Shown here in pieces: positions 45,642-53,619 of a stretch of 60,820 nt of DNA. The position numbers were made by a program, and so were the translations under genes. Location of the stretch: assembly GCA_902578305.1 (NCBI GenBank), contig CACHCK010000006.1, positions 1-60,820 on the forward strand. The letters are read 5' to 3'. The stretch comes from an uncultured Pelagibacteraceae bacterium (GTDB taxonomy: Bacteria; Pseudomonadota; Alphaproteobacteria; Pelagibacterales; AG-422-B15). Below the pieces are notes generated by a model. That model was not told the origin of the DNA. It worked only from the letters and a program-made list of their open reading frames with translations, and did not search any database. Position 1 is the stretch's first letter, and the number at the start of each line of letters is the position of its first letter.

Positions 45642-46196
45642 ATGGATTCATTCGAAATTAATAAAATTGTAGCCTGTGTATTAGTTGTGGCCCTTGTATT
45701 TATCGGTTTAGCAAACTTCAGTGAGATTTTATATCATGTTGAAAAACCTGAGGTAGCAGCTTATCAAGTTGAGGGCGCTGAAGATATGGTGGTGTCTGCA
45801 TCAACAGCAATGGCAGACGATACTGCTACTGCGGAACCTGAAATACCAATTCAGACTCTGCTTGCATCAGCAGATATAGAAAAAGGTGCAAAGGTCTTTA
45901 AGAAATGTTCACAGTGTCATGTTGTAGAAAAAGGTGGAGCAAATAAAATTGGGCCAGCGCTCTGGGATATAGTAAATAAAGATATTGGTTCAAAAGAGGA
46001 TTATAAATACTCAAATGCAATGGCGGCATACGGAGGCAACTGGACATATGAGCAACTTAACGGATATCTTTTAAATCCAAAAAAATATATTGAAGGTACA
46101 AAAATGTCTTTTGTGGGTCTAAAAAAAGAAAAAGATAGAGCAAACGTCATACTTTATCTTAGAAGCTTCAGCGATAATCCTGCGCCAATTGAATAA
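45642..46196 (+). CDS. Membrane-anchored cytochrome c (CycM-like)
   Basis: 184 residues from ATG 45642 (MDSFEINKIVACVLVVALVF); the frame upstream to 45588 adds 18 residues not typical of the family. One N-terminal transmembrane anchor, a linker rich in Ala and Glu, then a class I cytochrome c: heme site KKCSQCHVVEKGGANKIGPA (C89, C92, H93) and Met ligand in GTKMSFVG. CycM-type cytochromes carry electrons from the bc1 complex to aa3 oxidase, indicating aerobic respiration. Typically divergent from kdsB in alphaproteobacteria. Confidence 0.92.
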   Translation: MDSFEINKIVACVLVVALVFIGLANFSEILYHVEKPEVAAYQVEGAEDMVVSASTAMADDTATAEPEIPIQTLLASADIEKGAKVFKKCSQCHVVEKGGANKIGPALWDIVNKDIGSKEDYKYSNAMAAYGGNWTYEQLNGYLLNPKKYIEGTKMSFVGLKKEKDRANVILYLRSFSDNPAPIE

Positions 46197-46324
46197 GTAC
46201 AAATAATCTGCAATATATTGATTGACGTCAGTCGGCACTATTACCTATTCTAATAATTAAAAATCGTCTTATTGATTTATCTTATTGATTTTTATGTATC
46301 ATTTTCAAATCAAGGTTTAGCGCA

Positions 46325-46347
46325 GACCTCATTGAAATTGTGTCGAA
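46325..46347 (+). repeat. Left copy of 23-bp direct repeat flanking the HAF gene
   Basis: GACCTCATTGAAATTGTGTC followed by GAA. It matches the copy at 48449-48471 at 22 of 23 positions in the same orientation. Together they bracket the 46383-48356 gene. Positions 46197-46382 otherwise hold a short tandem CTTATTGATTT pair and no gene. Confidence 0.8.
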
Positions 46348-46382
46348 TTGGTGAAGACTATTTCTTAAACTTGTGTGGAACT

Positions 46383-48356
46383 TTAAAATGCCGTTACAAA
46401 CTGAATCGCTGTTGAAGTCAGGCCTTCACTTAGAAATGGTGCATCCCGATAATTCAAAGATAACTTTATATGTTGATTGGGTTGCAGTACATAAATTGAA
46501 TATAACCCTGCCGCATATCGAGTAGTTTTTAAGACCTGCGGGGTAAGTGAAACACTATTAATGTACTGGCCGGTAGCATCATAACTACTGATCTTGTTGG
46601 ACAGATCATGTTCCATTCCAATATAGCCACCCGCTATCCACTGGTTGGCTAATTTCTTTTCACCGTAAAGATTAAGTTCATTGGTCACCGCATTGTGTTC
46701 CACGGCACTGTATGTAACGGGAAAATCGACTGCACTAGTCTCTATATACCCAGCACGATTTGAATTTTTATAATTTAATTTAGCCACTCCAGTTAAAGCA
46801 ATGCCTTGATAACTAGGTAAGGCAGTAACTACTTCTAATTGCATACCCTCACTAGCAATGCTACTGCTACCAGTTCCAGCTTCGGTATTGGTTAATACGT
46901 CACGGGTAATGTTATAATTTTCATTATTATAAGCTGCTGAGAGTTTAGCGGTATATTCACGACCAGCATAAGTTCCACTATACGCGGCAAAGAGTCCAAC
47001 TGTAGGTTCATTGCGGGTATCTTGATAATTACTAGGTAATTCCTGATCAGCTTGATCGATTAAGCCACCAAGAGATAAATTAGGTTGCAGTTGATAAGCG
47101 CCAACTAAGGTATATGCACTTTGCGCGCTATTGCTACTAAATTCATCGTTGTGATTATCACTATCTTGACGTAGTGATAATTGTGCACAAACCTTATTTA
47201 TCCCAAAAACATTACAGTTCGCATTTAAACTTTGGCTAAGAACATTATTTTTATAATTTAAAATAGAATGTAATTGTGAACCAGTAGTCGCAAGAGCGGT
47301 GGTGGTATTTGTAACATCTAACATTACATTTCTATAAATAAATGCTCGATTGCCATCTGTTGAATCTGAATAACCCACAATCACCGAGCCATCATCACTA
47401 ACATCGTGAGCGACGCTTGATGAACCGCCTGTTAATACACCTAAGCTGGTCACAGTGCCATCAACATATTTAACTGCTCGCCTACCATCTGTTGAGTCTG
47501 AATAACCCACAATCACCGAGCCATCACTACTAGCACTCTGAGCATAACTACCGTAACCATTTTCGTTACTACCCTCTAACGCGCCTAAGTTGGTCATCGT
47601 GCCATCAACATATTTAAATGCTCGATTTTCAGTTTCTATTGAATATGAATTCCCCACAATCACCGAACCATCACTACTAATACCTCGAGCGTAACTACGT
47701 ATTCCACCCGGTAATACACCTAAGCTGGTCATCGTGCCATCAACATATTTAAATGCCCGATTGCCATCTGTTGAATCTGAATAACCCACAATCACAGAGC
47801 CATCACAACTAACATCGTAAGCGCGGCTTTGTGAACCGCCCGTTAATACACCTAAGCTGGTCATCGTGCCATCAACATATTTAAATGCTCGATTGCCATC
47901 TGTTGAATCTGAATAACCCACAATCACTGAACCATCACTACTAACAGCATAAGCGAGGCTAATTGAAGAACCGCCCGCTAATATACCTAAGCTGGTCATC
48001 GTGCCATCAACATATTTGTATGCTCGTTTGCCATCTGTTGAATCTGAATAACCCACAATCACCGAGCCATCACTACTAACGCCGTTAGCGGTACTTATTT
48101 CACTACCGCCCGTTAATGTACCTAAGTTAGTCATCGTGCCATCAACATATTTAAATGCTCGCCTGCCAGCTGATGTATCAGCAGAACCTACAATTATCGA
48201 GCCATCACTATTAACGCCGGCAGCGTAACTATTTTCACCAACCTCTAATACGCCTAAGCTGGACATTTCAGCGTACAAAATTTTATATGAGCTTAAAAAA
48301 AATAAAGAACTCAGAATGGTAAGTTTGAGCAACTTTAATGTTGAAACACCTTGCAT
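46383..48356 (-). CDS. HAF-repeat autotransporter outer-membrane protein
   Basis: 657 residues. Signal peptide about 1-29 (LTILSSLFFLSSYKILYA). Residues about 31-345 are seven repeats of 44-48 residues, each with the pattern SSDGSVIVGYSDSTDG then RAFKYVDGT and MTSLGVLTGGS, the HAF extracellular repeat. Residues about 360-657 alternate polar and hydrophobic strands and end in Phe (IQFVTAF), as in autotransporter beta-barrels. The passenger is probably displayed on the cell surface, perhaps for adhesion; function unknown. It is visibly richer in G+C than its neighbours (31 of 60 in row 47401-47460 against 14 of 60 in row 49141-49200), is flanked by a direct repeat and interrupts otherwise conserved housekeeping DNA, so recent acquisition is likely. 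Confidence 0.85.
   Translation of the reverse strand: MQGVSTLKLLKLTILSSLFFLSSYKILYAEMSSLGVLEVGENSYAAGVNSDGSIIVGSADTSAGRRAFKYVDGTMTNLGTLTGGSEISTANGVSSDGSVIVGYSDSTDGKRAYKYVDGTMTSLGILAGGSSISLAYAVSSDGSVIVGYSDSTDGNRAFKYVDGTMTSLGVLTGGSQSRAYDVSCDGSVIVGYSDSTDGNRAFKYVDGTMTSLGVLPGGIRSYARGISSDGSVIVGNSYSIETENRAFKYVDGTMTNLGALEGSNENGYGSYAQSASSDGSVIVGYSDSTDGRRAVKYVDGTVTSLGVLTGGSSSVAHDVSDDGSVIVGYSDSTDGNRAFIYRNVMLDVTNTTTALATTGSQLHSILNYKNNVLSQSLNANCNVFGINKVCAQLSLRQDSDNHNDEFSSNSAQSAYTLVGAYQLQPNLSLGGLIDQADQELPSNYQDTRNEPTVGLFAAYSGTYAGREYTAKLSAAYNNENYNITRDVLTNTEAGTGSSSIASEGMQLEVVTALPSYQGIALTGVAKLNYKNSNRAGYIETSAVDFPVTYSAVEHNAVTNELNLYGEKKLANQWIAGGYIGMEHDLSNKISSYDATGQYINSVSLTPQVLKTTRYAAGLYSIYVLQPNQHIKLSLNYRDAPFLSEGLTSTAIQFVTAF
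47322..48266 (-). repeat. Seven tandem HAF repeats inside the autotransporter gene
   Basis: Repeats of about 132-144 bases. Neighbouring units share long near-identical stretches such as CATCGTGCCATCAACATATT and GAATCTGAATAACCCACAAT, while the variable 20-30 bases between them encode the GGS linker region. High nucleotide identity between units suggests recent duplication or ongoing recombination and makes the copy number likely to vary between strains. Confidence 0.85.
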
Positions 48357-48448
48357 TGGAACAAGGTTTAACTTGTTATTAATAAAAAAAAATAATCAAT
48401 TTTTACTGATATATTTATGTAGTTTAACTACAGATGTGCCTGTTAATG

Positions 48449-48471
48449 GACCTCATTGAAAATGTGTCGAA
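48449..48471 (+). repeat. Right copy of 23-bp direct repeat flanking the HAF gene
   Basis: GACCTCATTGAAAATGTGTC followed by GAA, one mismatch from the 46325 copy. It lies 99 bases upstream of the AmpG-like start. The 48357-48569 interval contains no other gene that I can support; the upstream extension of the AmpG frame to 48501 reads through this junction and is not family-like. Confidence 0.8.
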
Positions 48472-48569
48472 ATTATCGTATGATGTGTTGTATTTAGGTT
48501 TTGGGAAACGGGCAAGTAACTGAAACTAAACGAGAAATAAGATTTATTTATATATCGGCGCAATATTTA

Positions 48570-49901
48570 ATGACGAGAGAAAATGTAGGATTATCAATTT
48601 ATTTTGATAATAGAATGTTGCGCATCTTGCTGCTTGGAGCAATTAGTGGTTTTCCTTGGGTAATAATTGGAAGTGCTCTTTCACTTTGGCTTAAAGACTA
48701 TGAATTATCGAGAAGTACAATTGGATGGGCGGGTCTTATTTTTAGTGTATATGCAATTAACTTTATTTGGGCTCCAATTATTGACCGTGTAAAAATTCCT
48801 ATCTTAACTCAAAAAATTGGCCACAGAAAATCGTGGATTATTACTTTACAAGCAATAATACTGGTATGTCTATTTATTTGGACGACACTCAATCCAATTA
48901 CAAATTTAGAATTAATTATTTTACTTGGATTATTGATAGCTATTTCCTCGGCATCTCAAGATATAACAATTGATGCTTTAAGAATTGAGCAAATAGGTGA
49001 GGATGAAAAAGCATCAATGGCGGCTGGCGCATCAATAGCTGTGGTTGGTTGGTGGACGGGTTATAAAATAGGCGGAATGCTCACACTTTTTGTTGCTGAT
49101 TATTTTGAACAGCAAGGCTTAGCTAATTATTGGCAATTAACTTTTCTGTTCATTTGCTTAATCATTTTTCTTTTTAATATTGGACTTTTATTTATTCCAG
49201 AAGATCTATCGAATAAAAGGCAAATTGCTCAAAAGAGTGATCAAGATCGTTTAAAATTAAATAAATTTTCAGCCTGGTTTGTAAGCACTATCGTAAGTCC
49301 ATTAATTAGTTTCTTCAAAAAAAATGGGTTAACCATCAGTCTATTAATAATTGGGTTCATATTTTTATTTAAAATTGGTGAGGCATTTTTGGGGCGCATG
49401 TCCATTATATTTTACGACGAAATGGGATTTTCAAAATCTGATATTGCAATTTACTCAAAGGGACTTGGATGGATAACAACAATTATATTTACATTATTGG
49501 GCGGTTGGTTTTCCATAAAATCAGGTGTGGTTAGAGCACTATTCATTTCAGGAATTGCAATGGCGATTACAAACATAATGTTTAGTGTGATGGCATGGTC
49601 TGAGAAATCAGTTTTACTCTTTGCTGCCGCGGTATTACTTGATGATTTGGCTGCAGCTTTTGCAACTGTGGCTTTTGTTACCTTTATTTCGCTACTTGTT
49701 GACCGAACGTATACCGCAACTCAATATGCCCTTTTGGCATCGCTTGGAACAGCTGGAAGAACACTAATGGCATCATCTTCAGGATCATTAGTCGACTGGT
49801 TGCAGGGAGATTGGGGTGTTTTCTTTATAATTACCGCTGTCATGGTAATTCCTTCATTGATTTTGCTTTGGTTTATTAGAAATAAATTTTCATTCAATTA
49901 A
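48570..49901 (+). CDS. AmpG/PAT-like MFS permease
   Basis: 443 residues from ATG 48570; the frame is open to 48501 but the extra 23 residues look unrelated to the family and come from the repeat junction. Twelve transmembrane segments. The start YFDNRMLRILLLGAISGFPW, then GWAGLIFSVYAINFIWAPII (AmpG: loop before DR motif) and SSASQDITIDALRIEQ (the conserved ASQDI-DA stretch) match the AmpG branch of the PAT family. AmpG imports anhydromuropeptides for cell-wall recycling; relatives carry acetyl-CoA. A cytoplasmic NlpC/P60 peptidase gene is convergent and adjacent, consistent with recycling. Confidence 0.8.
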   Translation: MTRENVGLSIYFDNRMLRILLLGAISGFPWVIIGSALSLWLKDYELSRSTIGWAGLIFSVYAINFIWAPIIDRVKIPILTQKIGHRKSWIITLQAIILVCLFIWTTLNPITNLELIILLGLLIAISSASQDITIDALRIEQIGEDEKASMAAGASIAVVGWWTGYKIGGMLTLFVADYFEQQGLANYWQLTFLFICLIIFLFNIGLLFIPEDLSNKRQIAQKSDQDRLKLNKFSAWFVSTIVSPLISFFKKNGLTISLLIIGFIFLFKIGEAFLGRMSIIFYDEMGFSKSDIAIYSKGLGWITTIIFTLLGGWFSIKSGVVRALFISGIAMAITNIMFSVMAWSEKSVLLFAAAVLLDDLAAAFATVAFVTFISLLVDRTYTATQYALLASLGTAGRTLMASSSGSLVDWLQGDWGVFFIITAVMVIPSLILLWFIRNKFSFN

Positions 49902-53031: not shown

Positions 53032-53619
53032 TTAAAGATTATTCTCTAACTCATATTTCTTTATTGCTTCGGCTAACTCGATTTTTTCTGAACAATTGAA
53101 GATACAGATATCTGTTAGTATTGCTAGGTTTTCAAGGGCCATTTCATATCGATCCGTTTGTAAATACAGCTCACCTTGATAAGCTAATATATCGTCATGT
53201 TGAGGTTCAATTTCTAAACCTGTATTATAATATAGTTCTGCGTCATCAAATTTGCCAAGTTTGCGACTTGCAAAGCCAATTAAATTCCAACCGTTTGCAT
53301 TTTGAGGATTTTCATAGACATATATTTCTAAGTCTTTGAGTGCACCCTGATAGTTCTCATTCTTCTCAATTTCAAACAGAATTCGTTTTAACTCTTTATC
53401 GTAACCAGTACTTCCAGAATATTCTCCACCACCACTACTAGAACTTCCTCCTGAGCTACCGCCAGAACTACCTCCTGAACTACCGCCAGAACTGCCTCCT
53501 GAGCTACCGCCAGAACTACCTCCTGAACTTCCTCCTGAGCTTCCTCCACCGTCATTTTTAGCTGAAGCAGAAAAAGCCAAGCTGATACTGATAATAATGA
53601 CAAAGATTATATTTTTCAT
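53032..53619 (-). CDS. Secreted TPR protein with Gly-Ser repeat linker
   Basis: 195 residues from ATG 53619, which has an AGGAAAAT ribosome site and starts a proper signal peptide (MKNIIFVIIISISLAFSASA); the upstream extension to 53700 is not plausible. After the signal comes a low-complexity GGSS tract (about residues 24-66) and then two or three TPR units (ALKDLEIYVYENPQNANGWN, KFDDAELYYNTGLEIEPQHD, RYEMALENLAI). Two Cys in DICIFNCSE could form a disulfide. A periplasmic or surface scaffold is likely; partner unknown. Confidence 0.8.
   Translation of the reverse strand: MKNIIFVIIISISLAFSASAKNDGGGSSGGSSGGSSGGSSGGSSGGSSGGSSGGSSGGSSSSGGGEYSGSTGYDKELKRILFEIEKNENYQGALKDLEIYVYENPQNANGWNLIGFASRKLGKFDDAELYYNTGLEIEPQHDDILAYQGELYLQTDRYEMALENLAILTDICIFNCSEKIELAEAIKKYELENNL
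53422..53550 (-). repeat. Tandem 12-base repeats encoding the GGSS tract
   Basis: About eight or nine 12-base units (each reading GGTTCAGGAGG-like on the minus strand) encode repeated Gly-Gly-Ser-Ser. The units alternate synonymous codons, so repeats are not perfectly identical, but the tract should be prone to slippage in multiples of four residues without shifting frame. Confidence 0.8.

Follow-up and report, generated by a model that had tools for sequence, protein, structure and literature searches.

Between its cycM and ampG-like genes, the genome studied here carries a horizontally gained 2.3-kb segment with one surface-protein gene, which encodes a HAF-repeat autotransporter. The segment lies in the window, meaning the whole 60,820-nucleotide stretch of DNA that was analysed, which is contig C6 of a draft genome (1.24 Mb, 34 contigs). 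For the joint reading, in which this gain brought in a type V surface propeller from a donor with the gene order ilvD-HAF, we estimate a probability of roughly two in three. The coordinates of the relevant features are collected in Table 1.

Table 1. Features of the insert and its surroundings, in window positions
Feature	Position	Strand	Basis or remark
cycM, left neighbour	45642..46196	+	
Inserted segment, ~2.3 kb	46261..48561	.	junction alignment with the empty sites of 19 close relatives
23-bp direct repeat, left copy	46325..46347	+	
Cassette common to the phhB-QOR locus of G007, G020 and G022	46379..48435	-	DNA homology breaks off sharply at both ends
HAF-repeat autotransporter gene, 657 aa	46383..48356	-	ORF, PF03797, TIGR02913
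Part of C-terminal autotransporter beta-domain, residues 397-597	46566..47168	-	PF03797; modelled without confidence
Passenger: seven repeats, predicted seven-bladed beta-propeller	47313..48287	-	structural model; PDB propeller matches
23-bp direct repeat, right copy	48449..48471	+	
Sigma-70-like promoter match TTGAAA-17-TATGAT facing ampG	48456..48484	+	overlaps right 23-mer; count not above chance
ilvD 3' end and downstream DNA, probable donor carry-over	48521..48560	-	40-bp match at 88% to G047:C14, E 7.8e-8
ampG-like gene, right neighbour	48570..49901	+	start is the ATG at 48570, 9 bp past the insert

The gene and its predicted product

The HAF reading frame is intact, and in a profile search its product matched the TIGR02913 HAF repeat at 236.6 bits (cut-off 22.65) over seven stretches and, in the C-terminal beta-domain, the Pfam family Autotransporter (PF03797) at 36.8 bits (curated cut-off 26). 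HAF-repeat autotransporters are a known kind of protein. Those of Pseudomonas, Burkholderia and Stenotrophomonas plasmids and of Alphaproteobacteria are built alike, with an autotransporter domain C-terminal to the HAF repeats; the identity of the window protein to HAF autotransporters outside the genus is 24–42% overall. The gene described here differs in its setting, a short insert flanked by core genes in a streamlined genome.

A preliminary description of this DNA had placed the gene between cycM and an AmpG-like gene and had noted a G+C content above that of the surroundings, and both statements were borne out. At 40.4%, the G+C content is the highest among the 63 ORFs of the window (mean 34.1, sd 2.7). 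GC3 is only modestly raised (28.7% vs an ORF mean of 24.8, sd 2.5); thus, much of the excess is attributable to the amino acid composition of the repeats, which are rich in Gly, Ser, Asp and Val.

The repeats had been described as seven and near-identical. Their number was confirmed, but near-identity was not, since full units share 57–86% amino acid identity with each other; at the DNA level, the first 84 bp of units 2–4 are 93–95% identical. Concerted evolution of the repeats was considered and found to be slight (0.80 within the gene vs 0.77 between genes). A model of the passenger (mean pLDDT 88.9, pTM 0.89) comprises 28 strands, four per repeat, and its matches in the PDB were WDR5-like (TM 0.5–0.6) and S9-peptidase propellers. 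The first-ranked match by E-value was TolB, a six-bladed propeller. As the seven repeats are modelled as seven four-stranded blades, they probably form one closed seven-bladed propeller rather than an open-ended expansion. This correspondence provides a structural reading of HAF repeats. It also weakens the proposal of an expandable copy number, as does the origin of the differing counts elsewhere (two repeats in G022, four or more in G020), which were read from genes lying at the ends of contigs, where arrays may have been collapsed or cut.

Residues 345 to 657 were modelled with pLDDT <50 from a shallow alignment, and the assignment to autotransport therefore relies on the PF03797 family match. 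The N-terminal sequence, KLLKLTILSSLFFLSSYKILYA, is hydrophobic. The protein would probably be exported through the type V route, with a putative signal peptide, a surface propeller as passenger and a C-terminal outer-membrane barrel. The predicted role of the modelled propeller is probably the binding of a ligand, a surface or another cell.

An empty site in close relatives

The cycM gene is present in 37 of the 43 genomes of the genus. In all 36 other cycM-bearing genomes, ampG begins about 45–75 bp past the end of the cycM match and the HAF gene is absent; these gap sizes were taken from DNA positions, and BLAST shows the same directly in 29 of the 36. Hence the gene, rather than being syntenic throughout the clade, occurs at cycM-ampG in the window genome only, and the recent acquisition of a surface protein suggested earlier is upheld by the empty site and by the fourfold-site identities given below. 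The closest relatives are mostly 96–98% identical, and in 19 close relatives the empty site could be read to the single base as CCTATTCTAATATTTAATGACGAG.

When aligned to this empty site, the left junction of the window consists of TTCTAATA joined to ATTAAAAATCG, and the right junction of CGGCGC joined to AATATTTAATGACG, which together delimit the insert; since both junctions contain AATA, its end points are fixed only to within a few bases. The shared bases, AATA or eight of nine in AATAwTTAA, may represent either a short duplication of the target or microhomology in AT-rich DNA. Both junctions are clean and fall within one gap of the 60.8-kb contig, and no host base was lost. Apart from the 657-aa gene, the insert holds three other ORFs of only 47–50 aa. 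An ORF check of 46261–48561 revealed no transposase or integrase gene, no terminal inverted repeats join the two insert ends, and no RNA structure was found in the flanks. As a separate observation on cycM, its match in G036 (L021, G036:C6:85735-86340) contains an in-frame TAA, perhaps ahead of the true start codon.

In the relatives, ampG follows close behind cycM on the same strand, and the two genes may be co-transcribed. The insert parts them, and the HAF gene is antisense to both. The promoter-like match facing ampG, to which the right 23-mer contributes, might compensate for this separation; promoter-like matches in the region are no commoner than in shuffles.

Relatives of the gene and evidence of transfer

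The HAF protein was detected in 4 of the 397 genomes of the order, all from one genus (the window genome, G007, G020 and G022), and in none of the other 393 searched. The three additional carriers are distant congeners whose proteins are 82–92% identical to that of the window over the main aligned parts, and their gene lies at another locus, between a quinone-oxidoreductase-like gene (QOR) and phhB. The DNA homology of the window to these phhB-QOR loci ends sharply on both sides, delimiting the shared cassette.

At fourfold sites, the barrel part of the window gene is 59–67% identical to those of G007, G020 and G022, whereas cycM, ampG, kdsB and pheA reach 30–48% in the same genome pairs; against two close relatives, the four housekeeping genes reach 84–98%. 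The excess of the barrel over the housekeeping genes in the same pairs indicates that the HAF gene moved between lineages. None of the three congeners is the direct donor, so that the search for donors proposed in the preliminary description yielded relatives but not the immediate source. No phage match to the HAF protein and no viral-contig relative were found. A phage or plasmid vector was thus set aside, as there was no phage match and the plasmid matches were distant (<60% identity).

Two readings would dispense with a horizontal gain. According to one, the gene is ancestral at cycM-ampG and has been lost from all relatives; its presence in other congeners is compatible with such a history, but the 36 empty sites span both subclades, the carrier congeners hold the gene at another locus, and many independent clean losses would be required, so we regard this scenario as barely plausible. 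The other treats the segment as an assembly or amplification chimera, that is, foreign DNA wrongly joined to the contig. The genome is a draft, the relatives are single-cell assemblies and the segment is seen in one genome only, all of which leave some room for an artefact; nevertheless, a chimera usually yields one junction, whereas here two clean junctions sit in one gap of the contig with zero host bases lost, and the HAF reading frame is intact. We therefore consider a chimera very unlikely, and horizontal gain remains the preferred reading.

The probable donor edge and the 23-bp direct repeat

At its right edge, the last 40 bp of the insert resemble the last ilvD codons and the downstream DNA of G047, a member of a different genus of the same family, with the stop codon in frame. 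The match comprises these 40 bp and one witness genome; the matching downstream stretch is absent from the 23 other full ilvD genes found, including that of the window genome. This edge suggests a probable origin of the gene in a donor that had the gene order ilvD-HAF, an order found in no genome searched. The DNA downstream of ilvD is itself variable: in G047 (L105, G047:C14) the next genes, oriented as ilvD is, encode a 214-aa protein and a 788-aa protein with a subtilase domain, and at two other loci (L173, G037:C7; L174, G028:C1) the downstream DNA holds a protein of about 450 aa and a giant alanine-rich repeat protein. Searches with the left 118 bp of the insert (46261–46378) returned no source, the best matches lying inside purK-like coding DNA and looking like AT-rich chance similarity. 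Matches of the right flank to phages were likewise at chance level only.

A 23-bp direct repeat had been reported to flank the gene closely, and the two copies, identical at 22 of 23 positions, are indeed present in direct orientation. Far from being a commonplace repeat, the 23-mer occurs just twice in the 1.24-Mb genome when up to three mismatches are allowed. The pair is the only one of its kind in the window outside tandem arrays (expected pairs in shuffles of the window, 0), and no copy was found in 52 other genomes of the family or in viral contigs. The copies lie about 65 bp (left) and about 90 bp (right) inside the insert ends. The block that they bracket is accordingly foreign, as had been supposed, but the inserted unit is wider than the block.

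It had further been proposed that the gene entered cycM-ampG by insertion into a 23-bp target, of which a copy would remain on either side, and that sister strains without the gene would hold a single copy. The repeats are real, direct, near the gene and unique in the genome, as such a model would have it; however, the relatives carry no copy, either in the empty-site alignments or elsewhere in the family genomes searched, and foreign DNA extends past both repeats, with the junctions outside them. Since the empty site holds no 23-mer, the repeat is not a target duplication of this insertion, and we give this model almost no credence. A regulatory element, either promoter or operator, instead of a recombination scar, is an unlikely reading of the repeat. 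Facing ampG, the right copy contributes a TTGAAA hexamer that is followed 17 bp on by TATGAT, but the left copy lacks a matching second hexamer, the motif is absent elsewhere in the genome, promoter-like sites in the region are not above chance, and the right promoter, if placed in the proposed donor, would point antisense into ilvD. In the preferred reading, the repeat, which lies just outside the shared cassette, could be the scar of an earlier entry of the cassette into the donor locus.

Proposed route of gain

The donor would probably be another SAR11-type lineage in which ilvD was followed by the HAF cassette, both in one orientation; there the 23-bp repeat would bracket the cassette, perhaps as a scar left when the cassette entered. 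From this donor, a fragment reaching from the last ilvD codons to beyond the HAF gene would then have been taken up and inserted into the cycM-ampG gap through recombination involving little or no homology. A broader and rather improbable extension is that a surface-protein cassette of about 2.1 kb circulates in SAR11-type lineages among a few fixed slots (phhB-QOR, downstream of ilvD and cycM-ampG) without a mobility gene, the 23-bp repeat being the footprint of a cassette-capture step in the donor.

Comparison with known SAR11 variation and the phhB-QOR slot

Large variation in SAR11 genomes is found mostly in a small number of hypervariable regions, while indels of single genes occur outside them, and strains HTCC1062 and HTCC1002 differ by autotransporters and gene indels (PMC2217521). 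The present case resembles theirs in that an autotransporter is present or absent between close SAR11 strains and in the single-gene indels in core regions; it differs in that their autotransporter is a deleted duplicate in a hypervariable region, whereas here foreign DNA was gained with readable junctions (PMC2217521). In replacement flexible genomic islands of aquatic prokaryotes, genes for exposed structures are swapped between lineages at fixed places (PMC4033161). The phhB-QOR slot, with its exchanged genes for exposed structures, is similar to such islands, but their proposed movement by homologous recombination in the flanks contrasts with the cycM-ampG insertion, which shows no homologous flanks (PMC4033161). 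What is new here is an insertion resolved to the base, together with an edge probably derived from the donor and the alternative slot. A single foreign surface gene lies in the gap separating two core genes, its junctions known to the base and its donor edge readable, and relatives of that gene occupy a slot used by alternative surface or secreted genes. In this way, the route by which these uncultured bacteria gain genes becomes traceable from single genomes.

The contents of this slot were compared across loci L042–L045, L076–L088 and L071. The convergent QOR-phhB gap is empty (1–8 bp) in most of the genus genomes examined, including the window genome (L071, G000:C10). Inserts in the genus comprise the HAF gene in three genomes, a 1971-aa protein that combines nine Big_5 domains with an autotransporter domain in four, and MORN, M23-peptidase, SHOCT and secreted-looking proteins of no assigned family. 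The gap thus looks like a multi-allele cassette slot for surface or secreted genes.

Several unrelated inserts (L077, L079, L078, L085–L087) share their QOR-side end just past the QOR stop codon. This short end is hairpin-like (GTGTCTACCTTAGACACGCTGG and variants), which would fit descent from a single ancestral insertion or use as a common terminator. Furthermore, the HAF copies of G007 and G020 (L042, L083) carry about 30 bp next to phhB resembling the 3' end of a 481-aa gene of G006 (L076), as if HAF had replaced a gene of the G006 type in the slot. Elsewhere in the window, the gene at 53032–53619 (minus strand) encodes a small protein with a Gly/Ser-rich stretch and contains tandem 24-bp repeats at 53440–53547, an array that is a candidate for length variation.
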